A stretch of DNA of 64,000 nt from Finegoldia magna (GTDB lineage Bacteria; Bacillota; Clostridia; Tissierellales; Peptoniphilaceae): NCBI RefSeq assembly GCF_003182075.1, contig NZ_QGTH01000010.1, positions 1-64,000 of the forward strand. The letters are read 5' to 3'. Every line of letters begins with the position of its first letter. Positions within the stretch are counted from its first letter, which is position 1. A program made the position numbers and the translations under genes. Positions 3,537-39,001 of this stretch are shown here, piece by piece. The notes under the pieces were generated by a model. The model saw nothing but the letters and a program-made list of their open reading frames with translations, made no database searches and had not been told where the DNA came from.

Positions 3537-3553
3537 AATGCAAAGGAGGCAAT

Positions 3554-16987: not shown

Positions 16988-17743
16988 ATGTCAAAGTGGT
17001 TTGAATGCATTAATAAAGATACATATAAGGAGAACAAAAAAGCTAATCTTTTTATCTTTCCTTTTGCTGGAGGTGGTGTCTCTGTCTTTAGAAAATGGGG
17101 AGATCAATTTAACAATATAGGAGTTTATGTTGCTCAATACCCTGGGAGAGAATCTAGATTCGGAGAAAGAGCAATAGACAACATAGATGAGTTAGTGTAC
17201 GAGCTATTTTACAGTTTAAGAGAAAACCTGGATACCCAAACACCATACTATCTATTTGGTCATAGCATGGGTACAAAGATTGTTTATGAACTGACATTAA
17301 GGATAAAAGAAAGCGACTTACCCAACCCCAAAGGAATAATTATATCTGCTGGTCGTGCGCCTTGTTACAAGGAACCAAACCCTATATATCACCTTGATGA
17401 TGAAGGATTTATAGAAGGATTAAGAAGATATGACGGAACACCAGATGAAATTTTAGATAACAAAGATCTAATTAGCATATTTCTTCCGACTCTAAGAGCA
17501 GATTTTATTATAGATGAGGATTATCAAGATAAAAAATATGAAAAAGTTGATAGCAACATCCTTGGTTTGATGGGGGACATTGACGAAGAAATGAAGTTGG
17601 ATGAGTTATTGAAATGGTCGGAATATACAACTAAAAGCTTTTCGTATAAATATATTCCAGGTAAGCATATGTTTGTTAATACTTCCGAGAATAACGTAAT
17701 AGAAGCTATAAAAGAATTTGTTGGCTTAGATGAAAGTTTATAA
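16988..17743 (+). CDS. Type II thioesterase (YbtT/GrsT-like) of the NRPS cluster
   Basis: 251 residues from ATG 16988, which has AGAGGTG before it; the open frame extends upstream over the promoter, so the longer start is rejected. It is an alpha/beta hydrolase with the early LFIFPFAGGGVSVFRKW oxyanion motif, the nucleophile elbow GHSMG (Ser93), an R-A-D-F region (LRADFIIDEDY) and a late GKHMFV histidine. Type II thioesterases remove wrong or acetyl groups from carrier proteins. It is the first gene of the operon, as in yersiniabactin and equibactin-type loci. The next gene overlaps it by 14 bp. Confidence 0.88.
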   Translation: MSKWFECINKDTYKENKKANLFIFPFAGGGVSVFRKWGDQFNNIGVYVAQYPGRESRFGERAIDNIDELVYELFYSLRENLDTQTPYYLFGHSMGTKIVYELTLRIKESDLPNPKGIIISAGRAPCYKEPNPIYHLDDEGFIEGLRRYDGTPDEILDNKDLISIFLPTLRADFIIDEDYQDKKYEKVDSNILGLMGDIDEEMKLDELLKWSEYTTKSFSYKYIPGKHMFVNTSENNVIEAIKEFVGLDESL

Positions 17744-18425
17744 GATTGAACTTTTAACGAAAGATGACTTTTATAAGTTTGAAAAATTAGATGAAAGATT
17801 CTATTTTTATGACGTCATGTTAGTTGTGGCTAACATGAATGAAATTAAAATTAGAGATCTTGAGAGATGGCTAAGTAAGAGCGAAATAAAAAGATCGAAA
17901 TCTTACGTATCTGAAATTGCAAAGATAAATTTTGTGATATCCAGAGTCATTGTAAACATCGTCTTTAAAGAAATTCTTAAAACCGACATTGAAAATCTTA
18001 ACTTTCAAAGAGACAGTAACAACAAGCCTTTCATAGAAAATCCGCAAGGGATTAAATTTAATATATCTCATACAGATGGATGTGTGATAGCGGGATTTTC
18101 AAAAAGAGAAATAGGTGTAGATGTAGAAAAAATCAATAAAAGATTTAGCTTTCAAGATATTTTAAAAGAGTGTTTTGTGGAAAAAGAAATAAATCTAATT
18201 AGAAATAAACATACACTGTTTTTTAAGTATTGGACTGCAAAAGAAGCATACTTGAAATGGGAAGGCAGCGGTCTATTAAGAAATCCAAAAGAAATAGAAA
18301 TACTTTATGTGGATGAGAGTTTGATAAAAATCAGAGATAAAAACATGAAAAAAGCAAAGACATTAAAACCTATTAAATTATCTAAAAATTATGTAGGTGC
18401 ACTTTGCATATCGGAGGAAATATGA
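17730..18425 (+). CDS. 4'-phosphopantetheinyl transferase (Sfp type)
   Basis: 231 residues. The Sfp-type motifs are present: KFNISHTDGCVIAGF, then the Mg-binding IGVDVEKI and the W-x-K-E-A motif as FKYWTAKEAYLKWEGSGL. The enzyme transfers phosphopantetheine from CoA to the serine of carrier domains. Having it within the operon makes the cargo independent of the host's NRPS-activating enzyme, which suits a mobile element. It overlaps the thioesterase gene by 14 bp and the adenylating enzyme gene by 4 bp (ATGA). Confidence 0.9.
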   Translation: MKVYKIELLTKDDFYKFEKLDERFYFYDVMLVVANMNEIKIRDLERWLSKSEIKRSKSYVSEIAKINFVISRVIVNIVFKEILKTDIENLNFQRDSNNKPFIENPQGIKFNISHTDGCVIAGFSKREIGVDVEKINKRFSFQDILKECFVEKEINLIRNKHTLFFKYWTAKEAYLKWEGSGLLRNPKEIEILYVDESLIKIRDKNMKKAKTLKPIKLSKNYVGALCISEEI

Positions 18426-20008
18426 ATATAGAGTTAAAAGAAAAATTAGAAAAATTCTATGATGAAAATGTTTGGGAGCATAGGACACTGGGCGAATTTA
18501 TAAGTGACTGTGCAAAAAAATATGGAGATAAAATAGCTGTTATAGATGATGGAAAGAAATATTCATACAAAGATCTGGAGGCAGATTCCATTAAATATGC
18601 AAACGGACTTTTGAAGGCGGGCTTTAAGCCTGGAGATAAAATCGTTTTGCAACTTCCTAATTGTTATGAATTTATAGTGATAGCTTTTGCTATGTTCAAA
18701 GTTGGAATTATTCCTGCGTTAAGTTTACCGGCTCATAGAGAAAATGAAATGAAGGGAATTATTGAAAAATCAGAGGCGAAAGCTTACATATCGAAGGATA
18801 AGTATTTAGGGTTTTCTTATGCGGACATGATTCGTGACATAAAAAGAGAATTACATCATAGCATTGAGGTTTATATTCTTGGTGATAGTCAAGAGTATAA
18901 AAATTTTTCAGATCTTGTTGATAATGATTATAATTACAAATTGCCTGAAGTAGATTATAAAAACATTGGTCTACTACTATTATCTGGTGGCACAACAGGA
19001 ATTCCGAAGTTAATTCCAAGAAGACATTGCGATTATATTTATGTTGCAAAACGCACGGCGCTAAAATGCAAGATGGATGAACAAAGCATTTATTTAGCAG
19101 CTCTTCCTATAGCTCATAACTTTCCTTTATGCTGTCCTGGTATTTTAGGAACATTTTCAGTGGGCGGAAAGGTTGTTTTATGTAGAGTAACAAGTCCAGA
19201 TGAGATTCTCCCCCTCATAGAAGAAGAAAAAGTGACCATAACAGGCTTAGTGCCTGCTGTAGCGAATATTTGTCTGGAATTTTTAAAAGATGGTGATTAC
19301 GATATATCCTCATTAGAAATCTTACAAATAGGCGGATCGGTATTGGAAGCCTCACTTGCAGAAAAAATTGAAAAAGAATTTAAGGCAAAATTGCAACAGA
19401 TTTTTGGCATTGCTGAAGGGTTGATATTGGTCACAGACATACAAGACAATTACGATATTAGAATGCATACCCAAGGCAAACCAATAAGTAAATACGACGA
19501 CATAAGAATTGTTGAAGAAAATGGCGATGATGCACTAAATGAAGACTTTGGCGAACTTATTGTACGAGGACCATACACGATTTATGGATATTATAATTTA
19601 CCTGAAATCAACAAGAATTGCATGACGGCAGATTGCTATTTCAGAACAGGGGATAAGGCTAGAAGGCTTAAAGATGGGAATTATCAAATAGTCGGTAGAA
19701 TTAAAGAAACAATAAACAGAGCTGGCGAGAAGATAACACCGCTAGAGCTTGAAGATATTCTCCTTACTCATAAAGACATAGATGGCGTCCAAGTAGTGGG
19801 AATTCCTGATGAACTTTTAGGAGAAGCCATAGCAGTTTTTGTCTTAAAGACGAATGAAAAAGAATTAAAACTTGATGAAATCAGACACTTTTTATCTGAC
19901 AAAAACTTAGCAGAATTTAAATTGCCGGACAGTGTCAGGTATATTGATGATTGGCCATTAACAGCCTTAGGTAAAATAGACAGAAATAAGTTAAGAGAAA
20001 TGATATGA
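18422..20008 (+). CDS. Aryl acid-AMP ligase (salicylate or 2,3-dihydroxybenzoate; YbtE/DhbE/EntE-like)
   Basis: 528 residues from ATG 18422 (GGAGGAAAT before it). Adenylate-forming motifs are complete: LLLLSGGTTGIPKLIPR, FGIAEGL, YFRTGDKARR, RAGEKITPLELE and the catalytic lysine in LGKIDRNKL. The aryl-binding loop reads AHNFPLCCPG. From memory of DhbE studies, the second cysteine sits where 2,3-DHB enzymes have serine and salicylate enzymes have cysteine, and GLI stands where DHB enzymes have GLV. This favours salicylate, but it is a two-residue argument. The product would be passed to the N-terminal carrier of the next protein. Same operon position as ybtE or the corresponding equibactin gene. 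Confidence 0.88.
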   Translation: MNIELKEKLEKFYDENVWEHRTLGEFISDCAKKYGDKIAVIDDGKKYSYKDLEADSIKYANGLLKAGFKPGDKIVLQLPNCYEFIVIAFAMFKVGIIPALSLPAHRENEMKGIIEKSEAKAYISKDKYLGFSYADMIRDIKRELHHSIEVYILGDSQEYKNFSDLVDNDYNYKLPEVDYKNIGLLLLSGGTTGIPKLIPRRHCDYIYVAKRTALKCKMDEQSIYLAALPIAHNFPLCCPGILGTFSVGGKVVLCRVTSPDEILPLIEEEKVTITGLVPAVANICLEFLKDGDYDISSLEILQIGGSVLEASLAEKIEKEFKAKLQQIFGIAEGLILVTDIQDNYDIRMHTQGKPISKYDDIRIVEENGDDALNEDFGELIVRGPYTIYGYYNLPEINKNCMTADCYFRTGDKARRLKDGNYQIVGRIKETINRAGEKITPLELEDILLTHKDIDGVQVVGIPDELLGEAIAVFVLKTNEKELKLDEIRHFLSDKNLAEFKLPDSVRYIDDWPLTALGKIDRNKLREMI

Positions 20009-20020
20009 GAGGAGTTTGAA

Positions 20021-26185: not shown

Positions 26186-26198
26186 AGAAGGAGAAGGC

Positions 26199-27272
26199 AT
26201 GAGACTAAAAGTAATAGTGTGTGGAACTACATTTGGACAATCTTATATGAGAGCAATAAGTATGAGTGATAGCCTTGAACTGGTTGGTATATATGCAAAA
26301 GGAAGCAAACGCTCTATGGATTGTTCAAAAATTTATAATGTGCCTTTATTTTCCGATTTGGATACTATTCCTGATAGTGTTGATATTGCGTTTGTGATAA
26401 TTAAATCTGGAGTTCTTGGGGGAGAAGGCACGGAGATATCTAAGCACCTTTTAAAAAAAGGAATAAATGTAATGCAGGAACATCCTATCAACCATAGTGA
26501 AATTTCCGAATGTTTTAAAATAGCTAGAGAAAATAATGTTTTTTACAAAGTTGGAAACTTATATCCTTATTTAGAAAATGTTCAAATTTTTTGCAATGCA
26601 AGTCGATATCTGAGTTCTCACGATGCATTTCAATATGGAAGTGTTATGTCATCTTCACAAGGATTATATGGGCTTTCGTCTATACTAATCAAATCACTTA
26701 ACAACCCCCGTAGTTATATGATAAATAAGAGCGAAACAGTTCAGAGATATCCCTTTAGCAATATAAGAATTTCTAATGGACAATCAGACGTTTTTTTACA
26801 AATTCACAATGAAATCTCAGACAAGGATGGCAACAATCACATGCATTTACTACACAGGATCATATATTTCTTTAATTCTGGAAGATTAGAACTTAATGAT
26901 ACCTTTGGTTCGGTTATTTGGAGAAGCAGGATGAATGTTTCAGATGCTTCTGCATATAGAAACGAAAATAATCGAAGTGACACATCGAGTTTGATGGAAT
27001 GTATTCTAGCTGATGAAAATGAAGAAACGTACTCGGGGTTACTAGAAAAAAAATTTCCTTCTTCAATAAAAATGCAAATAGATAATTTTATTGAAGAAAT
27101 AAGAAATAAAAACATGAATGGAATAGAATTGCAAAGAGAACTATTAATTTCAAAAAAATGGAGCGATATAACTCATGAAATAAGCTTTCCTAGATTGACT
27201 AAATTTCATGAAAATTATAATGATTATACTAGAGGTTTGAAAGCTTTGAGGAATACAAATGAAAAATGTTAA
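26199..27272 (+). CDS. Thiazolinyl imide reductase (Irp3/YbtU/PchG-like), first copy
   Basis: 357 residues with an AGAAGGAG site. It has a Gfo/Idh/MocA-type Rossmann start (LKVIVCGTTFGQSYMRAISM) and the family's VMQEHPINHSE motif, plus a GRLELNDTFGSVIWRSR strand typical of thiazolinyl imide reductases. The enzyme reduces one carrier-bound thiazoline to thiazolidine with NADPH. It follows the HMWP2-like gene by 13 bp and overlaps the next gene by 14 bp. The window has a second intact copy (31219) and a decayed third (36197), so more than one ring could be reduced. Confidence 0.88.
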   Translation: MRLKVIVCGTTFGQSYMRAISMSDSLELVGIYAKGSKRSMDCSKIYNVPLFSDLDTIPDSVDIAFVIIKSGVLGGEGTEISKHLLKKGINVMQEHPINHSEISECFKIARENNVFYKVGNLYPYLENVQIFCNASRYLSSHDAFQYGSVMSSSQGLYGLSSILIKSLNNPRSYMINKSETVQRYPFSNIRISNGQSDVFLQIHNEISDKDGNNHMHLLHRIIYFFNSGRLELNDTFGSVIWRSRMNVSDASAYRNENNRSDTSSLMECILADENEETYSGLLEKKFPSSIKMQIDNFIEEIRNKNMNGIELQRELLISKKWSDITHEISFPRLTKFHENYNDYTRGLKALRNTNEKC

Positions 27273-28728
27273 AAACTTTAATAGCTTAAAAGTATTTGAA
27301 TATCTAAAAAGTTTAAAATCAAAAGGTATTTATCTGTATGTGGAAGAAGGAATTCTTAAATATAAGGCGAAAAACAATGTACTGTTAAAAGAAATCTTAA
27401 ATGATATAAAAAGCAACAAGGAAGATATTACAAAATTCCTTATGCTTGCAAAAGACAACTATGTAGACTTAAGTTCGCTTCAATTGGCATATATGGCAGG
27501 GCAGTCAAAAACTCAAGTGTTAAATAAAGTGAACGCACACTACTATATAGAATACTCAAAAGAGAATATAGATGTATCAAAATTAGAGAATGCGCTAAAT
27601 ATTTTAATAAGGGAAAATGATGCATTGAGAATGATAATTTTATCATCTGGGCATGGATTAATAATAGATGAGATGCCTAGATATAGAATTCAAACATATA
27701 ATTTAGTTAATGGGACTGATAGATTATCTACTAGAGAAAATTTATCCCACAAACGTTATTTTTATGATTCTTGGCCAATGTTTACTATTGTAGTTGGCAA
27801 AAGCGATAAGTTTGAAGATGTTTTTCATTTTAGCTTTGATTGCTCTATATTGGATGCTTGGTGTGCAGGCAAAATGGTGAATAATCTTTTTAAAATTTAT
27901 TCAGGGCAAAAACCAAAACAAACAGAATATACTTACAAAGATTATACCTATGATCTTAAGGGCTACAAAGAAAAGAATAAAAAAATAATTCAAAAAGCTG
28001 AACAGTATTGGGAAAATCGAATTTTAGCTATCAGCGACAGTCCCGAATTAAAATACAATAAAAGTTTTAATGAATTGCAGACGACCACCTTTAGTAGACA
28101 AGAATTTTCTTTTGAAAAAGGCGTTGTAAAAGCATTAGAAAAATATTCAAAATTACATAAAGTTACTTTAACATCTATTGTAATGACCATATATATGATT
28201 ACACTATCGAATATTAGCTCAAGAAAAAACATATCCATAAATATTACGGTTTTTGGGAAACTGCCTTTAAACAAAAATGTTGATGAAATTCTCGGGGAAT
28301 TTACAAATAATGGATTAATAGAATATAAAGATGAGAATGATGATTTTGTAGAAGCTGTAAAAAGTACTCAGAAACAAATATTTAAATTGTTAGAATTTAG
28401 AGCTTATGATGGTGTAAATATATTGAACAAAGCGAAAATATCAAGTTTAGGAAAACAAAGATATTTTCCTATCGTTATGACTTGTATGATTGGTGAAAAT
28501 TATAATTCTGTAATAAATGGATTTAAGGAAGAATATTCCTTAAGTCAAACACCACAAGTTGCGTTAGATCATCACGTAAGAATAATTGATGGAACCATGA
28601 AAATAACGTTTGATTATATCGAGGAGTTGTTTAACAAGAATCAAATACAAGAATTGATATATGCATACAAAGAAAAGATTGATTCTATATGCAAAGGAAA
28701 TATGGGAGGTAGCAAAGATAATGAGTGA
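27259..28728 (+). CDS. Free-standing cyclization (Cy) domain with TubC-type docking domain
   Basis: 489 residues. Residues about 10-65 look like a TubC N-terminal docking domain (FEYLKSLKSKGIYLYVEEGI, LKYKAKN, then LLKEILNDIKSNKEDI). The rest is a condensation-like cyclization domain: SLQLAYMAGQ, active D194-x4-D199 in FDCSILDAW, and SQTPQVALDHH. No adenylation or carrier domain follows; the next gene supplies the carrier. In yersiniabactin and pyochelin enzymes this domain is always part of a larger chain, so a stand-alone Cy with docking domain is unusual. It would condense and cyclise cysteine as ring three. Eight-bp overlap with the next gene. Confidence 0.85.
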   Translation: MKNVKNFNSLKVFEYLKSLKSKGIYLYVEEGILKYKAKNNVLLKEILNDIKSNKEDITKFLMLAKDNYVDLSSLQLAYMAGQSKTQVLNKVNAHYYIEYSKENIDVSKLENALNILIRENDALRMIILSSGHGLIIDEMPRYRIQTYNLVNGTDRLSTRENLSHKRYFYDSWPMFTIVVGKSDKFEDVFHFSFDCSILDAWCAGKMVNNLFKIYSGQKPKQTEYTYKDYTYDLKGYKEKNKKIIQKAEQYWENRILAISDSPELKYNKSFNELQTTTFSRQEFSFEKGVVKALEKYSKLHKVTLTSIVMTIYMITLSNISSRKNISINITVFGKLPLNKNVDEILGEFTNNGLIEYKDENDDFVEAVKSTQKQIFKLLEFRAYDGVNILNKAKISSLGKQRYFPIVMTCMIGENYNSVINGFKEEYSLSQTPQVALDHHVRIIDGTMKITFDYIEELFNKNQIQELIYAYKEKIDSICKGNMGGSKDNE

Positions 28729-30148
28729 ATTAGTCGAAAATAATAAACTGGATATCAAAAAGTTTAGGGAAAAAGTTCTCATCGCAACGAATATCGAAAA
28801 TGATAGAAAACATTTTTTAAAAACAAAAGTTGTCAATAAAGTTAATGAAAAAGAAATAAAAAAAAGAACATATACAGTAAAAAAAATTATAAAAAAGATT
28901 TTAGCAGAAATAGATAATGGAAATATAAGCGTCGATAGAGAAAATATGCATATAATCACATACTGGAGAAACTACACAAAAAATTTTAGCGAAGATGCGA
29001 TGCTGAACAAACAAACAGATGATGATTTATTCAACTTATTAAACGACAAAAAAGAGTTATTTATTTATGCATTAGAAAAAAGGGAAAATAAGAATTATTT
29101 ATTAATGGATAAAAAAATCTCCCCTGAAATATTAAGCTTTAGGGATGAAGATGTTTGCAAGTCTTATAGGAATATAATACTTAATATCAAAAATTATACA
29201 AGTGGTGATTTTATAAGCGTTGGTATAGTAAATCCAGGACAAGGCTTATTTTTGAATCACCTATTAAAAAACATACAAAACATAAAGGAGGTAGACTTAA
29301 TAGGACAAACAACTCTATCTATTAAAGATTTAAGAAAAGAATATAACAATATAAAGTTTACAAAATGGAAGATGGATGAAAATTATATACTAGGAGAGCA
29401 TGTGGGGAAATTCAACTACTTATTTATGCCAAATGTTGTCCATCATTTTAAAAACATTCAAAAAGAGTTAGAGCTTTTGAGTATGACTTTAAAGAAAAGC
29501 GGGATGCTATATTTAACAGATTTTGTAGACGTTGATCCAGTGTCAAGATTAGTAGCTATATTTTTTGAAGATAAAAAGGCAAGTATAAATGATGATAAGA
29601 AAAATGGATTCTTCTATAAGAATGATTACCTTGAAAAAGTAATCAACTCTTTAGTTACAAAACCACATGACTCGTATATTATTCGACGTGGGAACGTATT
29701 TGAGGCTTGCCTTATGAATAATCTTAATTACAAAGACGAGATAGATTTATTTGCAAAAGAAAATGAAATATCTAAGTGTAATATCAAACTTATCTATGAT
29801 AAGGAAAATACTCTAATAAAAGAAAATATAGAAAAACTCAATGATGGTTTAGATATATTAAAACATGAGTATGGCATGGGAACAGATTCAAAGACTGCAA
29901 ACATTCAAAAATTGACAAATTTATGGAAAAAGAATTTAGGAATTGACGATGAAAATTTTGGGAAGTCTAACTATTTCGAACTTGGCGGAGATAGCTTATT
30001 AGCTACTAAACTAGTTGTGGCTATTAATAAGGAATTTCACTGCGAATTGTCGCTTACTGATATTTTTTCCAATGCATATTTTCAAGAGATGTTGAAGTTA
30101 ATAGAAGACAAAAAGGATAATTTATCTATCATAGAAGGTGAAATATGA
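28721..30148 (+). CDS. Degenerate methyltransferase-like (epimerase-type?) domain plus peptidyl carrier
   Basis: 475 residues from ATG 28721 (GGGAGGTAGC before it, overlapping the Cy gene stop). About residues 150-300 fold like a class I methyltransferase: FISVGIVNPGQGLFLNHLL where the SAM-binding G-x-G-x-G should be, and NVVHHFKNIQKELELLSM further on. The SAM motif is poor, like the insert of the HMWP2-like protein, so epimerisation or a scaffold role is as likely as methylation. Residues about 395-475 are a carrier domain with Ser425 in FELGGDSLLATKL. With the preceding Cy gene it makes a split Cy-MT*-PCP module without adenylation domain; cysteine must be loaded in trans. Confidence 0.78.
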   Translation: MSELVENNKLDIKKFREKVLIATNIENDRKHFLKTKVVNKVNEKEIKKRTYTVKKIIKKILAEIDNGNISVDRENMHIITYWRNYTKNFSEDAMLNKQTDDDLFNLLNDKKELFIYALEKRENKNYLLMDKKISPEILSFRDEDVCKSYRNIILNIKNYTSGDFISVGIVNPGQGLFLNHLLKNIQNIKEVDLIGQTTLSIKDLRKEYNNIKFTKWKMDENYILGEHVGKFNYLFMPNVVHHFKNIQKELELLSMTLKKSGMLYLTDFVDVDPVSRLVAIFFEDKKASINDDKKNGFFYKNDYLEKVINSLVTKPHDSYIIRRGNVFEACLMNNLNYKDEIDLFAKENEISKCNIKLIYDKENTLIKENIEKLNDGLDILKHEYGMGTDSKTANIQKLTNLWKKNLGIDDENFGKSNYFELGGDSLLATKLVVAINKEFHCELSLTDIFSNAYFQEMLKLIEDKKDNLSIIEGEI

Positions 30149-31218
30149 TTGGTATTGTTGGTGCAAATGGAGAAATAGGAAATCTATGTATTAAGTTTTT
30201 AAAAGATTACGGGATAAATAATATAAAGGCAGGCATAAGAAATAGAAATTTATTAGAAGAAAATTCTAATTTTAGTTACGATTACATAGATTTATCAAAT
30301 AAAGAATCATGTATTTCTTTTGCTAAAAACTGTGATTGTGTTATAAATTGTGCCACAGCTAATAAAGAAGGAATTAAAAATTTAGTAGAAGCAGTTGAAC
30401 TTGGCAAAACCAAGCTGGTTGATCTGACGTATTATAGGAATATTGAATTGCCAAAAGTTAAAAATTCATTAATTTGTCATGGCGTTGGAGTTTCTCCTGG
30501 TTTAACTGAATCTCTTCCAAAAATAATTACGAAGCATTTTGATGAAGTAGAGTCTCTGAACTTATATTACGTTACAATAGATAAATTCACCTATTCGTCT
30601 GCAAAGTCATATTTGGAATATTTGGATAGCTCGAATATCTATCCAATGACAGAGATAAATGACTGGAAACTTCAGGCGACTTCCTATAACGGTGAAGCTA
30701 TTAGTTTGAAAAACCTGTCAGTGAAACTAAAACAAATCCCTTATATGGACAACAGATCTATTTCTATTTGTAGAAATTTAGGGATAAAAAATGCTAAGTT
30801 TAATATATGTATGCCTGACGGAGAAACATATAAGCTGTTAATGAACCCAAATTTTCGTAAATTTGACAAATCTGAAAAAATTCGCAAATTGATTATAGCT
30901 TCCAGACTTGATGTACAGATCTTTGATTCCTACTGTGCCATGTTAGTTGAATCCAAAGGGCAATTAAGAAACAATGAGGTATTTCATAGATTTTTAATTG
31001 AAGAAAAATCATCTGCGAACTTAACGGCAATTATTTCAGTTGCTGTTGCAGTAAAAATATTGAAAAATACATACGACGTAGGTATATATGAAATGGCAAA
31101 CTTGGAATATAGTAGTAAATTTTTAAGCTTAATTTTAGATATAGACAAAAAAGCAAATATTATTTTGGAAAATGGAGAAAATACTTTGTTCAAGAATTCA
31201 ATTGGTGGGGAAATATAA
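30145..31218 (+). CDS. Saccharopine dehydrogenase-like NAD(P)-dependent oxidoreductase
   Basis: 357 residues. The N-terminal Rossmann motif is MIGIVGANGEIGNLCIKFL, followed by DCDCVINCATANKEGIKNLV and HGVGVSPGLTESLPKI, which resemble the saccharopine dehydrogenase/trans-acting enoyl reductase NADP-binding family. Its substrate is unknown. Yersiniabactin and pyochelin loci lack such a gene; here it overlaps the carrier gene by 4 bp (ATGA) and abuts the second imide reductase gene, so it probably acts on a carrier-bound intermediate or on the released product. A role in an extra reduction is inferred only from this position. Confidence 0.6.
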   Translation: MIGIVGANGEIGNLCIKFLKDYGINNIKAGIRNRNLLEENSNFSYDYIDLSNKESCISFAKNCDCVINCATANKEGIKNLVEAVELGKTKLVDLTYYRNIELPKVKNSLICHGVGVSPGLTESLPKIITKHFDEVESLNLYYVTIDKFTYSSAKSYLEYLDSSNIYPMTEINDWKLQATSYNGEAISLKNLSVKLKQIPYMDNRSISICRNLGIKNAKFNICMPDGETYKLLMNPNFRKFDKSEKIRKLIIASRLDVQIFDSYCAMLVESKGQLRNNEVFHRFLIEEKSSANLTAIISVAVAVKILKNTYDVGIYEMANLEYSSKFLSLILDIDKKANIILENGENTLFKNSIGGEI

Positions 31219-32292
31219 ATGAAAAGATTAAATGTCATAGTATGCGGTTCTACTTTTGGCGAATACTATGTTCGAGCCATACAAAAAAATACAGATAAAT
31301 TTAACCTAACAGGTTTATTGGCAAAAGGTAGCGCAAGATCTCATCGTTTATCCGAAAAATATAACATACCTTTGTACTCTAATATTGAATCGCTTCCAAA
31401 AGACACTGATGTTGCATGTGTAATAATTCGATCAGAAGGTGCTGGAGGTCAAGGGACACTAATATGTAACAAATTAATACAGAAAGGGATACATGTTATT
31501 CAAGAACAGCCGACTCATAGTATATATTTAAAAGAAAGTTACAGACTAGCAAGAATTAACGATGTAATATATATGACTTCTAATTTATATAATCATTTGC
31601 CAGCGATAGAAACATTTAAATTATATAATGAAAAATTAAAATCACTTTCAAAACTTGAGTACGTGAATTTATCTTTTTCAACTCAAGTTTCATATACGGT
31701 TTTTGATATCATTTCTAAGTTAGGGATGCATGGAAAATTATCTTTGAATAAAAAAGTTATAAAAAATGAAGGTCCATTTGACATAATCAGCGTCAGACTT
31801 GATGAATTACCCATTTTAATAGAATTCAATAATAGAATAAACCCCAACCATTCAGACAAGAACATGTCTATTATGTATAACTTTAGGTTTTATTATGAAG
31901 ACGGAATATTATCTTTAGAGGATATATTTGGTCCCGTTACGTGGCGACCCAGAAAATATATAGAATCAAGGGATAGTGTTTCAGAGGTTGAAAATCAATT
32001 ACCTTTCCAGATAATTTATTCTAACGATTTAAATATGGAAGAATGTTTTGAGGAAACCTGGACTACTGCAATCTTAAAAGAATTAGAAGAAATGTATCAT
32101 TACATTGCACAAGGTTGCATAAATCAACAAAGAGCTAATGGAGAAATAGCTGCAGCTATAAACTGGGAAACCTTATCCGAATTCGCTGGTTATGCCGAAT
32201 TAGTTAACACATATAGAGAATGCGAAGTAATACTAGATACTTTCAGAAATAATGTAAGGAGAATAAAATGCAAAAAACTAAAAAACTGGTAA
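31219..32292 (+). CDS. Thiazolinyl imide reductase (Irp3/YbtU/PchG-like), second copy
   Basis: 357 residues, the same length as the first copy at 26199 and plainly a paralog: LNVIVCGSTFGEYYVRAIQK start, VIQEQPTHSIY where the first has QEHP, and GILSLEDIFGPVTWRPR. The two differ throughout, so the duplication is not recent. Each copy is next to a set of carrier and cyclization genes, which suggests that each reduces a different ring. It overlaps the following Cy gene by 25 bp. Confidence 0.85.
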   Translation: MKRLNVIVCGSTFGEYYVRAIQKNTDKFNLTGLLAKGSARSHRLSEKYNIPLYSNIESLPKDTDVACVIIRSEGAGGQGTLICNKLIQKGIHVIQEQPTHSIYLKESYRLARINDVIYMTSNLYNHLPAIETFKLYNEKLKSLSKLEYVNLSFSTQVSYTVFDIISKLGMHGKLSLNKKVIKNEGPFDIISVRLDELPILIEFNNRINPNHSDKNMSIMYNFRFYYEDGILSLEDIFGPVTWRPRKYIESRDSVSEVENQLPFQIIYSNDLNMEECFEETWTTAILKELEEMYHYIAQGCINQQRANGEIAAAINWETLSEFAGYAELVNTYRECEVILDTFRNNVRRIKCKKLKNW

Positions 32293-33686
32293 ATCATTGT
32301 AGAACAAATGGTATTGAACTGTATGTCGTAAATAAAAAATTAAGATATAAATCATTAAAAGGTAAAATAACTAAAGAATTATTAAATGAATTAAAAGAAC
32401 ATAAAAATGAAATTATAGAATATTTAGAGCAAGAAAAAGAGAGTGATGGGAAAATAGATATTAACATGTCTTTTCCGCTAACTCCAGTACAATCAGCTTA
32501 CGTATTAGGAAGAAGTGATTCGTATTCTCTAGGAGGTGTATCTTGTCACATCTACCAGGAATTTATTTATGAAAAGTTGGATGTTAATAGAGTAGAAAAA
32601 ATATGGAATAAAATAATAAATAAAAACCCCATGCTTAGAGCTGTAGTAAACCCAAACTCCACTCAAAAAGTTATTGAAAAAACTCCGAGGTATAGAGTTA
32701 TGGAAGGGAAAAGAAAAACCCTAAGAAATAAACTAGAAAACAAACATTATATACTGGGTGAATGGCCGATGTTTGATATAGGTATATCTCAGGAAAGAAA
32801 ATACAGCGTTTTGCATTTTTCAATGGATTTTTTAATAGCTGATTGGCTGAGTATATGGAATTTATTAAAAGAGTTTGAGGATATGTACTTTAATTGCGAA
32901 GACATCCAAATAATGGATAACAGTAAATATACCTATGCGGACTATATAAAAAGTATCCAGATTAAGAGTAGAAGCAATAAATATTTCAAGGATAAAGAAT
33001 TTTGGAAAAATCATAAAAATGAAATAAAAGCAGCTCCGCATTTGCCTTTACTTGAGGAAAAATCATACACTGATGATTTTATCAGGCATTCATTGTTGCT
33101 GAGGAGAGAAGATTGGGAGTTTTTTAATAAAACTTCACGAGAAAATGGTTTAACACCTACAGCCGCTATACTATCTATCTACAACGAAACCTTAAAAAGA
33201 TTTAGCATTAATAAAGATTTTAGCATTATTCTTACTACATTTAACTTAGAAGAAAGAAAAAAGTTTGGGAACATAGTAGGAGATTTTACCAACACATCAA
33301 TTATATCAACAACCTCAACGAACTGCCCATTTAAAGACGCAACACAAAGCATTAATAAACAAATATTTAGAAACTTGGATCACAGTAGTTATTCTGGAGT
33401 TGAAGTTTTAAGAGACTTATCAAAAAGTATTGGCAGTAAGGAGTTTTTATTACCTTTTGTATTTACTAGCGCAATTGGATTAAACAATAGAGACATGATT
33501 GGAAAGTATGATTACGGAATTTCTCAAACGCCTCAAGTACTGATAGATTGTCAAACAATTGATACACCAGAAGGTCTTAGAATTAATTGGGATGTTAGAA
33601 AAAACAAATTAAGCGAGATGTTAGTAAAAGACATGTTTAATTATTTTGAAAAAAATTTAATTAAATTGTCACAAAAAAACCTCTGA
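32268..33686 (+). CDS. Second TubC-docked cyclization (Cy) domain, C-terminus cut by a frameshift
   Basis: 472 residues, AAGGAGAATAAA before ATG 32268. A TubC-like docking domain (LVNHCRTNGIELYVVNKKLR, then LLNELKEHKNEIIEYL) precedes a full Cy domain: FPLTPVQSAYVLGRSDSY, D187-x4-D192 in MDFLIADWL, GISQTPQVLIDCQ. The frame stops at TGA 33684-33686 directly after a run of seven A (33673-33679). With six A the frame would run on into the next methyltransferase-carrier-thioesterase ORF, giving one chain of about 1300 residues with the order of the HMWP1 C-terminus (Cy-MT-PCP-TE). See the next entry. Confidence 0.85.
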   Translation: MQKTKKLVNHCRTNGIELYVVNKKLRYKSLKGKITKELLNELKEHKNEIIEYLEQEKESDGKIDINMSFPLTPVQSAYVLGRSDSYSLGGVSCHIYQEFIYEKLDVNRVEKIWNKIINKNPMLRAVVNPNSTQKVIEKTPRYRVMEGKRKTLRNKLENKHYILGEWPMFDIGISQERKYSVLHFSMDFLIADWLSIWNLLKEFEDMYFNCEDIQIMDNSKYTYADYIKSIQIKSRSNKYFKDKEFWKNHKNEIKAAPHLPLLEEKSYTDDFIRHSLLLRREDWEFFNKTSRENGLTPTAAILSIYNETLKRFSINKDFSIILTTFNLEERKKFGNIVGDFTNTSIISTTSTNCPFKDATQSINKQIFRNLDHSSYSGVEVLRDLSKSIGSKEFLLPFVFTSAIGLNNRDMIGKYDYGISQTPQVLIDCQTIDTPEGLRINWDVRKNKLSEMLVKDMFNYFEKNLIKLSQKNL

Positions 33687-33777
33687 ATGGAATAAAAATA
33701 CAGGGCATTACCTTTCTCCATTAGAAATTAATTATTTATATGGTGCTGAGAATTTAAATAAATATTCGCCAATTAAA

Positions 33778-36177
33778 TTGTTGGACAAAATAGAACATTC
33801 AACCGTTTTGCATTGTAGTGATTACTCATATATTCGAAATTGTACAATGAGAGATGAACTATGCCTTGGTATAATGCTAAAAACGCTGATAAATTTAGGA
33901 GTTTTTAAGGAAACAGAAAAGAATAAATATAAACTAGCGGAGCAGTATAACCAAAGAGATGATCAAAAATACAGCTGGGTAATACATAGGTGGATTGATC
34001 AATTAAATGTTATGGGGATTATCGAAAAAAATTCATTGAGTAAAGAGTATGAGGCGGAACTAGAACACGATGAGCATTTTTATATTATAACATGGGAAAG
34101 ATTATTTTCTCGATGGGTTGAAACACATGGAGATTTAAATGTACTTAAATATATAAAATCAAATTTAGAGAATTTAGAAAAAATAATAAAAGGCGAAATA
34201 GATCCAATTAGCTTATTATACCCTAATGGGTCTACTGTTTACACAAAAGCATTATACGAAAATAGTTATAGTGCATCTGTTATAAATGATTGTATTTCTA
34301 GCGTTGTTGAAAAAATTATAAAAGAAAAAAGACAAAATAAAATAAGAATATTAGAGATAGGAGCTGGAACAGGGGCTACAACTAAAGAAATTCTAAAGAA
34401 ACTAGAAAATGTAAATTATGAATACTTTTTTACGGATTCACAGAAATATTTTTTTCCAGAAGCAAAAAAAACTTATAGAAACAACAAAAACATTAAAATC
34501 AAAAAATTAAACATAGACTTATCTCCTGTTGATCAAGGATTTGATGAAAAATATTTTGATATTATCATAGCTGCTTACGTATTAGACAACACTAAGGATG
34601 TACCTAAAACTTTGGAACATATTTCAGAAATAATAGCTCCAGATGGTTATTTGTTGTTCTCAGAGCCTTCAAGAAATGAGCCGTGGTTAATGGCATCCCA
34701 AGCTTTATTAATGGAGGAACCCCTAGATGAATATAGAAATGATTGTTTTTTCCTAACTGTTGAACAATGGGTCAGAATGTTAAATAGCATGGATGGGAAG
34801 TACCAGACAAAGATTTTTCCTGAAGATAGCGTAATTAGAGAAAGACTTAGTGCTACATTATTTGTAAAAAAGATATCAAATATGAACAGTATACGCTCAT
34901 CATATAGAGATTCTAATAATGAAAAAAGATCGGGAAAAAGTGATATCCAAGATGAGAACAACTTTGAAATACCAATGACATCTCTCGAATTAAAAATAAA
35001 AAATATTTGTAAAAATACATTTGATGTGAAAGAAATTAAAAAGAATACAAATTTTTATGATATTGGTGTAGATTCTTTAATGATGGCAAAATTTGTAACA
35101 GAATTGAAGGATGATATAATAACGGACTTACCTTTTGAGTATTTGTTACGAGAGTGTATAAAAAACCCTACTATTGATGGTGTAGCAGAAATTATTAAAT
35201 CAGGTAATAATTTAGAAAATGTAGAAACCAATGAAAATGATTATTCAATTGTATCACAAAGGCTAATTGAATCAGATTGCAATACTAAAGATAAGGTTTT
35301 AAGAGTTTTAATAAATGGTGCGTTTGGAAATGTAAGTGATCTCGAAAAATTAGGAATCCAGCTCGTAAATCAAAACAAAGGGGATGTTTTAATTTTAGGT
35401 GTTTCAAACAAGGATTTATATTTAAGTACACAAAATGATAAACTAATTTCACGCCTCATTAGTCAATACTATGAGTGTATTGTACGTCAAGATTATAAAG
35501 ACGTTCAATTGATAGGATATAGCTCAAGCGGAACAATGGCTATAGAAGTAGCGAGACGTTTGTTAGAATCAGGTATTAACATAAAGAATCTCTCTATTAT
35601 AGAAGGTGGTATATTGCCCGACATAAAATATGATGAAATCATTTTAGAATTTATCTTTTTAAGAGCTTTTAATATTGATCTTGGTGACTTTGAAGTAAAA
35701 GATAGAAATGTTATTGATGGTTTAATTAAACAAAATGTAAATTATCTTTTAAACCTAGAAGTCAAGGACGTTATAAAAAATTTAAAGGATCAACAAGATG
35801 TAAGGATTTTAAAAGCCTTACAGAATAAAGAACAAGACGAAAGGTTTCATGAATATTTTAAATTAATTAAGGATAAACAAGAAAAACATATTACGGAAAA
35901 GTCTTTTTCAGAATTATATAAAATCTTCAAAAAATCTATTGAAATTCAGAAGTTTGTTCCTGATCCATACTTTGGAAATATTGATTATTATATAGCATCC
36001 GATAATATTGGAATATATAAACATTTTGAAAAACTAATGGGCAATCTTTCTGAGATAATAATAGGAGATATAAATAGATATGACATACCAGGGAACCACT
36101 ATAGTTCAGTACAATCTCTAAACAATGCCAAGATTTTGGCAAAGAAATTAGAGATAAAAGTAATGTCCAAGCATTAA
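33778..36177 (+). CDS. Methyltransferase-carrier-thioesterase protein (HMWP1 C-terminal-like), probably second half of a frameshifted gene
   Basis: 799 residues when counted from TTG 33778, but no ribosome site stands before any start and the frame is open back through 33661, overlapping the Cy gene. The upstream residues (SEWNKNTGHYLSPLEINYLY) look like a natural interdomain linker, so this is best seen as the continuation of the 32268 gene. Methyltransferase: intact SAM motif ILEIGAGTGATTKEIL (about 191) and AAYVLDNTKDVPKTL. Carrier: Ser433 in DIGVDSLMMAK. Thioesterase: GYSSSGTMAIEVA with nucleophile Ser582, where the second glycine of G-x-S-x-G is serine, and a late GNHYSSVQS histidine. 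It would methylate the last ring and release the product. No adenylation domain. Confidence 0.8.
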   Translation: MLDKIEHSTVLHCSDYSYIRNCTMRDELCLGIMLKTLINLGVFKETEKNKYKLAEQYNQRDDQKYSWVIHRWIDQLNVMGIIEKNSLSKEYEAELEHDEHFYIITWERLFSRWVETHGDLNVLKYIKSNLENLEKIIKGEIDPISLLYPNGSTVYTKALYENSYSASVINDCISSVVEKIIKEKRQNKIRILEIGAGTGATTKEILKKLENVNYEYFFTDSQKYFFPEAKKTYRNNKNIKIKKLNIDLSPVDQGFDEKYFDIIIAAYVLDNTKDVPKTLEHISEIIAPDGYLLFSEPSRNEPWLMASQALLMEEPLDEYRNDCFFLTVEQWVRMLNSMDGKYQTKIFPEDSVIRERLSATLFVKKISNMNSIRSSYRDSNNEKRSGKSDIQDENNFEIPMTSLELKIKNICKNTFDVKEIKKNTNFYDIGVDSLMMAKFVTELKDDIITDLPFEYLLRECIKNPTIDGVAEIIKSGNNLENVETNENDYSIVSQRLIESDCNTKDKVLRVLINGAFGNVSDLEKLGIQLVNQNKGDVLILGVSNKDLYLSTQNDKLISRLISQYYECIVRQDYKDVQLIGYSSSGTMAIEVARRLLESGINIKNLSIIEGGILPDIKYDEIILEFIFLRAFNIDLGDFEVKDRNVIDGLIKQNVNYLLNLEVKDVIKNLKDQQDVRILKALQNKEQDERFHEYFKLIKDKQEKHITEKSFSELYKIFKKSIEIQKFVPDPYFGNIDYYIASDNIGIYKHFEKLMGNLSEIIIGDINRYDIPGNHYSSVQSLNNAKILAKKLEIKVMSKH

Positions 36178-36196
36178 TTACGTTGGAGGAATAACA

Positions 36197-38323
36197 ATGA
36201 GAAAGAACTTAATCGTTTGTGGGTATTTACCAGAACATCATTACTTTTACAATTTAATCGAAACATCTAATAAAATAAATTTGGTAGGGATATTAGATTC
36301 GTATAATGAATTAGCCCTTAAAAATGCATATAATAATAATGTTTCATGCTTTAACAGCCTAGATGAAATATTGGAGAATTTTGGGAAAATAGATTTAGCA
36401 TATATTCCAAAAGCTTCATTTATAGCTTCTGAAGATAACAGATTAAGCATCTCTTTATTAGAAAGGCAAATATCTGTTCTAGATGAGAATTCATGCAATT
36501 CAGAATTATTAATAGAGAATTTAAGAAAAGCAAATCAAAAAAATGAATTTTATTACGCTTATAGACACATAATTGATACTGCTTTTTTTAACAGAATGAT
36601 TGGTATAATTAAAGATTTATCAAGAAAAATGGAAATTATTTTAATAGATGCCACTTTCGAACAGAAAAACTTAATTCTAATCTCAAGAATTATATGTGAC
36701 TCTTTAAAAATAAATACAACTATAAAGGTAAAGAATAACGATGTTTATAGCTATTATTATTTGATAACAGGAGAAATAGGTTCGTATGATTATATGTTTA
36801 AAATTTATAATATTGACAATCGAAGCATGTACAATAACCAAAAACATATTAATGCATTAACCTTAATAACCAACGAAGGATCCCTAACAATAGATTTAAC
36901 ATTCAAAAATATTTGTTGGCATGGAAATAATCTAAAACCATCAAAAACAATTTTAAAAAATCATGAAATAAGTGATTGCGAAAGCAAAGTTCTTGACAAT
37001 TTTATAAGTAAAAGAATTATACAGAGGGATGTGCAAGCAATACTCAATGATGCTGTTAAAATAAAAGAGATAGATGGGCTATTAAGTGGAGGGGGTAAAA
37101 AAAATAATGCAAAACAATTAAAGGGAAAAATTAAAACAAGTGTTCACCTTAGCCTGTACAATCAAATTACTTCGAGTGATACAGGGGGTGCAATAGATAG
37201 GGACCTTAAGACTATTAAATCCAACATTTATAAAAAGTATTTATATTATAAAAATGATTTTCTAGATGACTATTTTCAATCAATGAATAATTATGTGGGA
37301 ATGGAAATTATGCTATTTCTTAATTCTAAAAATATCTTCAACAAACCGTACAAGAAATATAATTGCAATGAAATTATGAACAAAGTTACTTCACGAAAAA
37401 CTAAAAGGAATGAAAGTATTATAAAATTATGGCTTTCTCAATTATCTAACACAGGATTTATAAATTCTGATTATGACAATTATTATTGGGCATCAAATGT
37501 AGTTTTAAAAACCGAACGAGATAGGATATATGATCATTTGAGTTTTCTTTGGAATTGGAAATTGGGAAATCCTCTTTCTCTTAAATATTTAAAGAAAAAT
37601 ATTAAAGAAATGGACAAACTCTTTAACGGTGAAATTAATTGCAATGAGATATTGTTTCCTCAAGGGAAAATAGATTATGCTGAAGCATTATACAAGGAAA
37701 ATACAATTTACAAGATGCTAAACGAACTACTTGCGTTAAAAGTAGCCGAATATATCTTGGGCAATTGTGAAGAAGATAGATTATCGGTATTAGAAGTAGG
37801 TGCAGGAATTGGAGCAACGACAAGTGCAATTTTCACTATGTTGGAAAAAATGAATTTACAAAGAAGATGCGAATATATATATTCGGATATATCGGATTTC
37901 TTTTTGCAAATCGGTAGAGAGAAATTCACAGGAGTAAGTGATATTAATTACAAAAAAATTGACTTAAATAATTATAGGCAATTAAAGATATTACCACAGG
38001 CAGACATAATCGTAGCTGCTGGAGTTTTAAATAATGTAAAGGATGTCGACATAACGCTGGAACTATTATACAAAAAGATAAAACCCAAAGGTTTGTTGCT
38101 TATTACAGAACCTGTTGGAAATCAAATTGAAATGCTTGTATCACAAGTATTCATGATGGAATCTATATTGAAAAATGATGAAGATGATAACAATTTGTTT
38201 GCAAGTGAAGTTTTATGGATAGAGAAACTAAAAAAAACAGGCTTTAACAACATAGAATCCTTTCCGAGCGATAGTCATAAATATAAAGAATTCGGCCAAA
38301 GGTTATTTGTTGCCGAGAAATAA
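36197..38323 (+). CDS. Fusion of a degenerate imide reductase-like domain and a SAM methyltransferase domain
   Basis: 708 residues, TTGGAGGAATAAC before ATG. Residues 1-300 follow the thiazolinyl imide reductase plan (LIVCGYLPEHHYFYNLIETS, then NEGSLTIDLTFKNICWHG) but lack the QEHP/QEQP motif (LDENSCNSE instead) and a clean cofactor loop, so catalysis is doubtful. Residues about 340-708 are homologous to the methyltransferase part of the 33778 product, with an intact VLEVGAGIGATTSAIF motif (about 530) and IIVAAGVLNNVKDVDITLEL. There is no carrier domain. This fusion has no counterpart in yersiniabactin or pyochelin loci; the reductase-like part might now dock the methyltransferase to its substrate carrier. 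Confidence 0.72.
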   Translation: MRKNLIVCGYLPEHHYFYNLIETSNKINLVGILDSYNELALKNAYNNNVSCFNSLDEILENFGKIDLAYIPKASFIASEDNRLSISLLERQISVLDENSCNSELLIENLRKANQKNEFYYAYRHIIDTAFFNRMIGIIKDLSRKMEIILIDATFEQKNLILISRIICDSLKINTTIKVKNNDVYSYYYLITGEIGSYDYMFKIYNIDNRSMYNNQKHINALTLITNEGSLTIDLTFKNICWHGNNLKPSKTILKNHEISDCESKVLDNFISKRIIQRDVQAILNDAVKIKEIDGLLSGGGKKNNAKQLKGKIKTSVHLSLYNQITSSDTGGAIDRDLKTIKSNIYKKYLYYKNDFLDDYFQSMNNYVGMEIMLFLNSKNIFNKPYKKYNCNEIMNKVTSRKTKRNESIIKLWLSQLSNTGFINSDYDNYYWASNVVLKTERDRIYDHLSFLWNWKLGNPLSLKYLKKNIKEMDKLFNGEINCNEILFPQGKIDYAEALYKENTIYKMLNELLALKVAEYILGNCEEDRLSVLEVGAGIGATTSAIFTMLEKMNLQRRCEYIYSDISDFFLQIGREKFTGVSDINYKKIDLNNYRQLKILPQADIIVAAGVLNNVKDVDITLELLYKKIKPKGLLLITEPVGNQIEMLVSQVFMMESILKNDEDDNNLFASEVLWIEKLKKTGFNNIESFPSDSHKYKEFGQRLFVAEK

Positions 38324-38347
38324 GAAAATAAGAAAATAGGAATTAAA

Positions 38348-39001
38348 ATGGAAAATAAAACTATAATTTTTGTATGCGGGGCTTTTCACGGCGAGTGGTG
38401 TTGGAATGAAAACTTTGTACCATTTTTCAAGAACAGAGGATATGAAATAAAAATTCATGTTCTTTCAGACGGTGCGAAAAATGTAGAAGAATCTATTGAA
38501 AAACTTAAAGAGATAACATCTAAAATCAAAGGTGAGTTTACGATAATATCTCATTCAATTGGGAATCTATTTGTCAATGAATATTTAATGAAAGGACATA
38601 GAAAACCAGCTTCTTTAGTAATCCTAAATCCGTATCCTGTGAATAAAAAATTTATAAATGCCGTAAGAATAGCTAAACGATTTTTTTGCCTAAAAAATAA
38701 AGAGCTATATTTTTCAAATACAAAGAAAGATGTAAACAAATATATAGATTTATTAAAAAAAGAAGAACCTTCAGGGATTAAATCTCTTACAGTATGTCAC
38801 AAATATAATAAAAGCTGCGTTAGAGGAATACCAGTCTTGATTATAGGATCATTAAATGATAAGTGTATCCCATTAAACTCACTATTGGATACAATGAAAC
38901 TTTATGATGGAAAATTAATAATTTATAGGAATGTTTGCCATGACAGCATGTTAGATTCTGAATGGGAATCTATAGCTGGAGATATAGCTGAATTTATATA
39001 A
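38348..39001 (+). CDS. Small alpha/beta hydrolase at the end of the NRPS operon
   Basis: 217 residues. The fold is shown by IIFVCGAFHGEWCWNENF (oxyanion region), the nucleophile in SHSIGNLFVNEY, a late GSLNDKCIPLNSL acid and a NVCHDSML histidine. This is the short alpha/beta hydrolase type rather than the RedJ-like type II thioesterase of 16988. It may hydrolyse an intermediate or act as an intracellular release esterase for the metal complex; neither can be decided. Last gene of the operon, 24 bp after the fusion protein gene; its ribosome site (ATAGGAATT) is weak. Confidence 0.75.
   Translation: MENKTIIFVCGAFHGEWCWNENFVPFFKNRGYEIKIHVLSDGAKNVEESIEKLKEITSKIKGEFTIISHSIGNLFVNEYLMKGHRKPASLVILNPYPVNKKFINAVRIAKRFFCLKNKELYFSNTKKDVNKYIDLLKKEEPSGIKSLTVCHKYNKSCVRGIPVLIIGSLNDKCIPLNSLLDTMKLYDGKLIIYRNVCHDSMLDSEWESIAGDIAEFI

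Follow-up and report, generated by a model that had tools for sequence, protein, structure and literature searches.

An operon on a putative mobile element of Finegoldia magna with an equibactin-like gene set, predicted to assemble an aryl-capped metallophore with up to four cysteine-derived rings

A 64,000-nucleotide stretch of the 2.02-Mb draft genome of Finegoldia magna (assembly GCF_003182075.1, contig NZ_QGTH01000010.1, positions 1 to 64,000; henceforth referred to as 'the window') carries a nonribosomal peptide synthetase (NRPS) operon of the equibactin (eqb) type. The 13 proteins encoded between 16853 and 39001 were scanned with Pfam, and NCBIfam (TIGR) models were also used; the features are listed in Table 1, and genes are named here by their first position. 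A first-pass annotation had placed the operon between 16988 and 39001. The genes it described are present, but the operon is longer and runs from a DtxR-type regulator gene, past an operator-like palindrome, to an exporter gene, with a TetR regulator, an energy-coupling factor (ECF)-type transporter, two ATP-binding cassette (ABC) proteins and a MatE exporter following 38348 in that order (Pfam and NCBIfam). The DtxR-type frame is open from 16205 without an ATG, GTG or TTG start, and the open reading frame (ORF) list shows only its C-terminal part (16334-16576); its homologue on the A. prevotii plasmid pAPRE01 is of equal length (372 nt) and is annotated as a metal-dependent transcriptional regulator. 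A second, colinear copy of the operon lies in the same genome (contig C1:14000-53999, loci L005 and L006; henceforth 'the C1 copy'). It shares 58% identity over the 2054-residue synthetase, has four cyclization (Cy) domains and a fused module 4, and the start of its thioesterase gene aligns with position 16988 of the window.

Table 1. Features of the operon and of its mobile-element setting, in window coordinates unless a contig is named. A, adenylation; ArCP, aryl carrier protein; PCP, peptidyl carrier protein; SAM, S-adenosylmethionine; TIR, thiazolinyl imine reductase.
Feature	Position	Strand	Basis or remark
DtxR-type metal-dependent repressor, eqbA-like	16205..16576	+	123 codons; Pfam Fe_dep_repr_C
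Operator-like palindrome GTTAGACACAGCTAAC	16915..16930	no strand	upstream of thioesterase gene; pattern GTTAGN6CTAAC
Type II thioesterase, eqbB-like	16988..17743	+	Pfam Thioesterase 7e-39; 71% to C1 copy
4'-phosphopantetheinyl transferase (PPTase), eqbC-like	17730..18425	+	Pfam ACPS
Aryl-AMP ligase, eqbD-like	18404..20008	+	pocket code NFCGQGII; alignments to 1md9, 5wm2
NRPS of EqbE/HMWP2 layout, 2054 aa	20021..26185	+	ArCP(S40)-Cy1-A(Cys code DLYDMSMI, epimerase-like insert)-PCP1(S1445)-Cy2-PCP2(S2011)
Thiazolinyl imine reductase TIR1, eqbF-like	26199..27272	+	TIGR01761 203 bits, over cut-off; Irp3-like_C
Module 3 part a: TubC_N docking domain and Cy3	27259..28728	+	domain scan; own tree clade
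Module 3 part b: PchE-type epimerase-like domain and PCP3 (Ser425)	28721..30148	+	profile and structure matches
EqbM-like oxidoreductase	30145..31218	+	saccharopine-reductase/carboxyspermidine-dehydrogenase fold (predicted model)
Thiazolinyl imine reductase TIR2	31219..32292	+	TIGR01761 198 bits, over cut-off
Module 4 part a: TubC_N docking domain and Cy4	32268..33686	+	domain scan, motifs
Module 4 part b: methyltransferase (ILEIGAGTG)-PCP4 (Ser433)-thioesterase (GYSSSG), without adenylation core	33778..36177	+	TTG start uncertain
Degenerate TIR-like domain and methyltransferase with SAM motif (VLEVGAGIG)	36197..38323	+	domain scan, motifs
Alpha/beta-hydrolase-like protein (SHSIG elbow)	38348..39001	+	weak Pfam matches, E 0.008-0.02
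ECF-type transporter: Trep_Strep S component, CbiQ-like T component, double ATPase	40474..43195	+	Pfam
Two ABC membrane-ATPase proteins, eqbK/eqbL position	43196..46647	+	Pfam
MatE exporter	46660..47997	+	Pfam
Element backbone genes: CD1107-like protein, topoisomerase, 3210-aa helicase/methylase protein	564..14923	+	domain scan
Relaxase and NikA-like mobilization protein	50981..52704	-	relatives (56% and 65%) adjoin C1 copy
Group II intron with reverse transcriptase	52760-54505	-	adjoins relaxase genes
Tn916-type integrase	C10:65090-66325		past window end

The composition of the assembly line agrees with what the first-pass annotation had described. All four Cy domains have the D-x4-D motif (Cy1 D228-D233 and Cy2 D1638-D1643 in the 20021 product, Cy3 D194-D199 in the 27259 product and Cy4 D187-D192 in the 32268 product) and match Pfam Condensation (E 2e-75 in two stretches, 5e-37 and 4e-23). 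An aryl carrier is followed by four peptidyl carriers, and the carrier serine is retained in all five; Pfam PP-binding matches were obtained at E 5e-34 (two stretches), 1e-13 and 3e-6, and the aryl carrier Ser40, which Pfam did not list, was found by motif and by alignment to PchE. Ser1445 and Ser2011 belong to the 20021 product, Ser433 to the 33778 product and Ser425 to the 28721 product (Ser445 if counted from 28661). No polyketide domain was listed by Pfam in the 13 proteins scanned. When compared with the Cy residues named for PchE and HMWP2-Cy2 in PMC8807600 and PMC9547227, the Asp and Thr of SQTPxVxxD are intact in all four domains and the full residue set is present in Cy2 and Cy4, while Cy1 has Ala at the FTS position, like PchE. 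The A-domain code, read from the PchE alignment, and the ligase code are identical to those printed for EqbE and EqbD in PMC3672683. The ligase scored 518 bits with TIGR02275, under the cut-off of 724. Together, the specificity codes and the four Cy/carrier pairs support the earlier proposal of an aryl-capped, cysteine-based product with up to four rings.

As to the origin of the aryl cap, the genome contains one chorismate-binding gene followed by a second, short gene, which we tentatively take to be PabB and PabC. With the sole chorismate-binding gene read as PabB, no salicylate synthase was found in the genome (isochorismate pyruvate-lyases were not searched), and salicylate synthesis by the host was rejected on this ground. 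Equibactin is described as needing salicylate in defined medium (PMC3672683).

In module 3, the start of 28721 was set by homology and by its ATGA overlap with the Cy3 stop, and Pfam gave its product only a PP-binding match at 1e-3 and weak methyltransferase matches (best 0.018). The best PDB match of an eight-member 28721 profile was PchE (1.4e-11 over the whole chain), with an i-E of 0.00013 on the epimerase stretch (1088-1250) and 0.0015 on the PCP stretch (1355-1415). His241 of the 28721 product aligned with PchE H1204, and the partner of the latter, E1234, falls on an Asp in one alignment (made via the module-1 insert) and on a neighbouring residue in the profile alignment. SAM motifs are retained in the 33778 and 36197 products only and occur neither in the 28721 product nor in the insert of the 20021 product. 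The predicted 28721 model has a methyltransferase fold, for which Foldseek ranked PchE first (3.1e-7). Since it lacks a SAM motif and its profile points first to the epimerase of PchE, we read the 28721 product as a probable PchE-type epimerase that stands alone with its carrier. A methyltransferase role is the less likely reading, kept in view because C-methyltransferase folds score as high.

Among the reductases, TIR1 and TIR2 retain the presumed cofactor motif and the QExP motif, both of which the TIR-like part of the 36197 product lacks. The predicted model of the EqbM-like protein (predicted local distance difference test, pLDDT, 85) matched 8h4z in Foldseek (4.5e-18) and 8deb in VIA-align (Z 29.3). 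Homologues of 38348 occupy the equal position in relatives, that of pAPRE01 being annotated as an alpha/beta hydrolase, and the 38348 product is a candidate counterpart of EqbN, for release or editing.

Overall, the operon probably encodes a metallophore system on an integrative element, controlled by its DtxR-type regulator, and we put the probability that its assembly line joins salicylate to four cysteine-derived rings at roughly 0.63. The ligase would load an aryl acid, most likely external salicylate, onto the ArCP of the 20021 protein, and the single Cys A domain of that protein would load all four PCPs. Cy1-PCP1 and Cy2-PCP2 would add rings 1 and 2, ring 1 being epimerised, and the chain would then pass to the separate Cy3 and the stand-alone epimerase-PCP protein, where ring 3 would be added and epimerised. 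Cy4 and the methyltransferase-PCP-thioesterase protein would provide a C-methylated ring 4 and release the acid, perhaps with the 38348 hydrolase. Reduction of at least one ring would fall to TIR1, TIR2 and the EqbM-like protein, another methyl may come from the 36197 methyltransferase, and the ECF transporter would import the metal complex. For a salicyl cap and one C-methyl, the computed [M+H]+ is 493.0491 with four rings, 495.0648 if one of them is reduced, and 408.0505 with three rings. The figure of up to four rings follows from the four Cy/carrier pairs; in this scheme the substrates, ring number and ring states, like the regulation, the metal and production itself, are predictions from the domains, residues, gene order and conservation observed in the DNA.

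Several observations weigh against this reading. Cy3 departs from consensus at two active-site positions in both the window and the C1 copy, with C for S in DxxxxDxxS and H for the helper Q two residues past the catalytic Asp; A. coli Cy3 has Ser where window Cy3 has Cys. The 28721 model is of low confidence (AlphaFold pLDDT 63), and VIA-align puts C-methyltransferases (Z up to 15.8) slightly over PchE (Z 14.5). Vibriobactin-type tandem Cy systems show that the number of Cy domains need not equal the number of rings. If one Cy were condensation-only, or a module were skipped, the product would have three rings and be of equibactin or yersiniabactin size, and equibactin as published has three Cy domains. 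To see how the genes are constrained, we compared five near-identical A. vaginalis-type loci (L031 and L032 left out) by the ratio of nonsynonymous to synonymous polymorphism (pN/pS), summed over 10 non-independent pairs. The 28721-type gene gave a raised value of 0.57, which speaks against strict constraint and fits a skipped module, whereas Cy3 gave 0.088 (46 synonymous and 18 other differences), the lowest of the six genes tested; the others were the EqbE-like synthetase (0.30, first residues excluded), TIR1 (0.50, few changes), the EqbM-like gene (0.165) and TIR2 (0.174). Moreover, the Asp/Thr pair and D-x4-D of Cy3 are intact, every Cy has its own Ser-bearing PCP, and G515, a relative with three Cy domains (of Cy1, Cy3 and Cy4 type), lacks Cy2 and PCP2 yet keeps Cy3 and a 28721-like gene. 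We therefore regard a three-ring product as unlikely.

The remaining point against four rings is a break in module 4. The Cy4 frame stops at 33686, and that of 33778 is already open slightly upstream of this point, at an A-rich tract, such that the two frames overlap, and TTG is the only start for 33778 in the ORF list. A true split, a frameshift in the window copy or an assembly error could each account for this. Module 4 is in one frame in the C1 copy, A. vaginalis, A. coli and Clostridium kluyveri, and no such break was seen in relatives, whereas relatives do keep Cy3 and the 28721-type gene apart. Read as decay, the break and the missing A core would mean that the window copy yields no full product and that the C1 copy does the work. 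This seems distinctly improbable: the other window genes are open and motif-complete, in module 3 the Cy and its carrier are separately encoded in every case, the C1 copy, with its fused module 4, lacks the A core as well, and an error in a draft assembly would look the same. The thioesterase Ser is retained in the window (GYSSSG), in the C1 copy (GYSFGG) and in A. coli, A. vaginalis, C. kluyveri and G515 (GYSFSG); the pAPRE01 motif is GHCIGG. The C1 ligase code (NFCQIGSI) is unlike that of the window, which suggests that a single cell might produce two compounds with different caps.

The phylogeny of the Cy domains was next considered. In a 40-row tree, Cy1, Cy2, Cy3 and Cy4 formed four separate clades (supports 100/99 to 100/100), each of which includes rows from the window, the C1 copy, A. 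vaginalis, A. coli and C. kluyveri; rows from shorter loci occur in the Cy1 and Cy4 clades too. Because each clade spans the same distant hosts, the four-Cy set is, on the evidence of this tree, old and co-inherited, and recent duplication was rejected as the source of Cy3 or Cy4. Shorter relatives (G515, pAPRE01 and G412) lack a Cy together with its carrier. Two Cy domains are found in pAPRE01, G412 and G452, the second carrier of pAPRE01 being under the script threshold but having a GADSL motif. The pAPRE01 locus (L047 16407-38449) encodes ArCP-Cy-A-epimerase-PCP, TIR-methyltransferase and Cy-PCP-thioesterase proteins and a dipeptide/nickel-type ABC importer; the mass computed for a product of two rings, one reduced and N-methylated, corresponds to pyochelin's formula.

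The same loci differ in a way that looks like exchange of starter-unit blocks, since identity drops over the ligase and ArCP, the trees are discordant and the ligase codes differ. DNA identity between the C1 copy and pAPRE01 is 94.7% in a block of 2783 bases (DtxR, thioesterase, PPTase and the start of the ligase) and 90.6% in one of 2702 bases (Cy1-A), and the two are divergent past the A domain. Between these blocks, over the rest of the ligase and the ArCP, 200-base windows fall to 47-59% (70% at the edge); the sharp drop was located at L005 12400-13800 against both L047 and L021, with flanking blocks at about 90-95%, and G412 shows a like pattern. In seven-row trees, G412 groups with A. 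coli and C. kluyveri in the ligase part (99/99), where C1 forms a long branch, and with C1 and pAPRE01 in the Cy1-A part (100/100). The ligase codes are NFCGQGII in the window and pAPRE01, NFCQIGSI in C1, KFCAQGLI in A. coli and C. kluyveri, NFGGQGII in G515 and KFSAQGLV in G412. The window itself is not the recombinant in this comparison. Tentatively, and at a little short of even odds, the anaerobic cocci would share a mobile, mosaic siderophore factory, in which swaps of blocks (regulator-thioesterase-PPTase, ligase and ArCP, Cy1-A, later modules) give variously capped lines of two to four rings, and the four-ring members, the window among them, would make a product of an uncharacterised kind. 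The natural series of two, three and four modules, with its swapped starter blocks, offers comparisons for how NRPS lines lengthen and get re-capped.

To determine how widely the gene set occurs, we used profiles of the 28721 and EqbM-like proteins. In the window's own family, which also holds Anaerococcus and Aedoeadaptatus, 8 of 130 genomes (its own included) gave a match to the 28721 profile. Of 206 genomes sampled from Clostridiaceae, 1 matched strongly, and another hit there was to the carrier only. The strong match (G693, locus L073) has the same gene set as the core of the window and was tentatively identified as C. kluyveri; its gene order fits the CKL numbers given in PMC3672683. The EqbM-like profile matched 1 of 398 genomes in a broad phylum sample (the window's own) and 7 of 101 relatives (own included, three weakly). 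It also gave 22 loci in named genomes, of which 18 were annotated (all but L039, L042, L044 and L045); L030, a 6-kb (5984-bp) Peptoniphilus harei contig with head-to-head inverted, broken copies of the 28721-type, EqbM-like and TIR2 genes, was left out of comparisons, as was an Undibacterium plasmid locus (L079) first considered for its possible HMWP2 likeness. The Cy3/28721-type pair was present in seven loci, from A. vaginalis, Aedoeadaptatus coli, Anaerococcus sp. Marseille-P3625, A. degeneri, A. porci, P. harei (L031) and Peptostreptococcus sp. MV1, all with a module 4 that has its own A domain; the MV1 locus begins within the large synthetase, and several L031 genes are broken, module 4 included. 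The pair was found in none of ten annotated distant loci (L033-L038, L040, L041, L043, L046). All ten have an A+PCP protein directly upstream of the EqbM-like gene, with a weak match to the 28721-type profile in four (L037, L040, L041, L046), and because of this arrangement the 28721 type may descend from an A-epimerase-PCP protein through loss of A. Separately, Clostridiaceae bacterium M8S5 (L019/L020) has a larger relative with EqbM-like, TIR and module-4-like proteins, a stand-alone TubC_N-Cy protein and a 5318-aa NRPS frame.

Across the four genera Anaerococcus, Aedoeadaptatus, Peptoniphilus and Peptostreptococcus, seven loci share 98.2-99.8% DNA identity over 10.7-21 kb (21 pairs), and such near-identical relatives point to recent spread among anaerobes, several of which are human-associated. 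The 3' genes (TIR-methyltransferase and hydrolase) occur in two versions, one in L025 and L028 and the other in L026, L027, L029, L031 and L032; the two-version region extends from about 15-17.5 kb to the locus end, the rest of these clusters being near-identical.

The mobile setting noted in the first-pass annotation is likewise apparent, and the integrase, relaxase, NikA-like, topoisomerase and helicase/methylase genes suggest that the operon sits on an integrative-element backbone with features of an integrative and conjugative element (ICE). Upstream of the C1 copy are a 3289-aa ORF, at the start of its contig, and a related relaxase. In viral contigs, none of the 95 stretches that matched a pattern was confirmed as a relative, and the 28721 gene had no match in 72,556 plasmid records at 1e-8. 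The DNA of the right side of the element matched 8 plasmid records, the best places listed being pieces of about 70 bases, one of them under an annotated group II intron reverse transcriptase. The element also carries an AbiEi/AbiEii-like toxin-antitoxin pair (window 1563-3001). Genes for a two-component system, a radical SAM protein and an ABC transporter lie at window 54783-62418 and may serve in peptide modification or immunity.

Chance would give 0.07 matches to the palindrome pattern in the window; two are present, the second at 17819 inside the PPTase gene. By coordinates it lies just upstream of the thioesterase gene in L005, L015, L018, L021, L023, L047 and L076, the last with a second match elsewhere in the locus; 71 of 78 loci had no match, many of them not reaching the promoter, and it is absent from the C. 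kluyveri locus, which includes the thioesterase gene start. A DtxR-family gene and a palindrome cannot separate iron from manganese or zinc, and the C1 ligase code is unusual, as might be expected of a metallophore for another metal or of an antibiotic-like thiazoline. Siderophore import by an ECF-type transporter would be unusual. By position and homology, mapped through the C. kluyveri genes with PMC3672683, the transporter is nevertheless a putative eqbH-J-like importer, and eqbH-J are reported there as required for equibactin-associated iron import. Given this match, and the ligase and A codes shared with equibactin, a role other than that of an iron siderophore is very improbable. A four-ring salicyl-thiazoline, if made, would exceed both yersiniabactin and the proposed equibactin by one ring, and could alter metal choice and competition.

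Among known systems, the first-pass annotation had named equibactin as the closest. The operon is indeed equibactin-like: the order DtxR-thioesterase-PPTase-ligase-HMWP2-like NRPS-TIR, the EqbE layout, the EqbM-like oxidoreductase, the alpha/beta hydrolase and the transporter and ABC genes all recur in the eqbA-N list of Streptococcus equi ICESe2 (AM909652), the A and ligase codes are identical, and equibactin too is ICE-borne (PMC3672683). The doubt expressed earlier that equibactin has the same split parts was right: as published, its two synthetases have three Cy domains and four carriers between them, and the description mentions no Cy3/epimerase-PCP module, whereas the window has four Cy domains and five carriers over five genes. 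EqbG is described as a fused Cy-methyltransferase-PCP-thioesterase of 1272 aa with the thioesterase Ser replaced by Ala (PMC3672683), a Ser that the window thioesterase keeps. Of the loci found to share the gene set, the nearest is instead C. kluyveri NRPS cluster 1 (CKL_1504-1517), reported in 2008 (cited in PMC3672683 and PMC6814731). It has the thioesterase, ligase, EqbE-like synthetase, TIR, TubC_N-Cy3, epimerase-like-PCP, EqbM-like, TIR2 and module 4 genes in the window's order, as well as the ABC pair, ECF transporter and MatE exporter. It differs from the window in that a single 1791-aa protein, which includes a Cys A domain (DLYNLSLI), makes up module 4, its ligase code is KFCAQGLI, and no DtxR, PPTase, 36197 or 38348 homologue is listed in the 38-kb stretch. 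Both loci have, after the first TIR and before the EqbM-like gene, a stand-alone TubC_N-Cy gene and then the epimerase-like-PCP gene; a one-protein module 4 with its own A domain is not shared, the A core being absent in both window and C1. By description, the C. difficile RT023 island 023_CTn1 also carries an equibactin/C. kluyveri-like cluster on a mobile island (PMC6814731).

The gene set is thus not new, the C. kluyveri cluster having been reported already, and the window holds a real four-module variant of it. The first-pass annotation had held that a close, characterised locus with the same gene set would overturn its claim; the gene set exists, but no characterised product of it, nor any four-ring product, was found in the open-licence literature as far as its texts were accessible. 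Yersiniabactin (HMWP2/HMWP1, Irp3) is alike in its ArCP-Cy1-A-PCP-Cy2-PCP protein, terminal methyltransferase-PCP-thioesterase and Irp3-type reductases, and unlike in that the window has no polyketide module and one more Cy/PCP pair. Pyochelin (PchD/E/F/G) shares the salicyl-Cys chemistry and the PchE-type epimerase inserted in A, which in the window also stands alone; it has two rings, and the pyochelin-like layout in this group is that of pAPRE01 rather than of the window. The earlier analogy to tantazole and thiangazole, which are runs of 2-methylthiazolines, is weak because only one module has a SAM-motif methyltransferase (with 36197 in trans), so that methylation of most rings is not predicted, and because module 3 has an epimerase-like domain. 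In its predicted mode of working, the assembly line resembles equibactin and yersiniabactin biosynthesis with one module added. Having four Cy domains against the three of equibactin proper, the window locus is, by its gene content, best placed with the C. kluyveri type.

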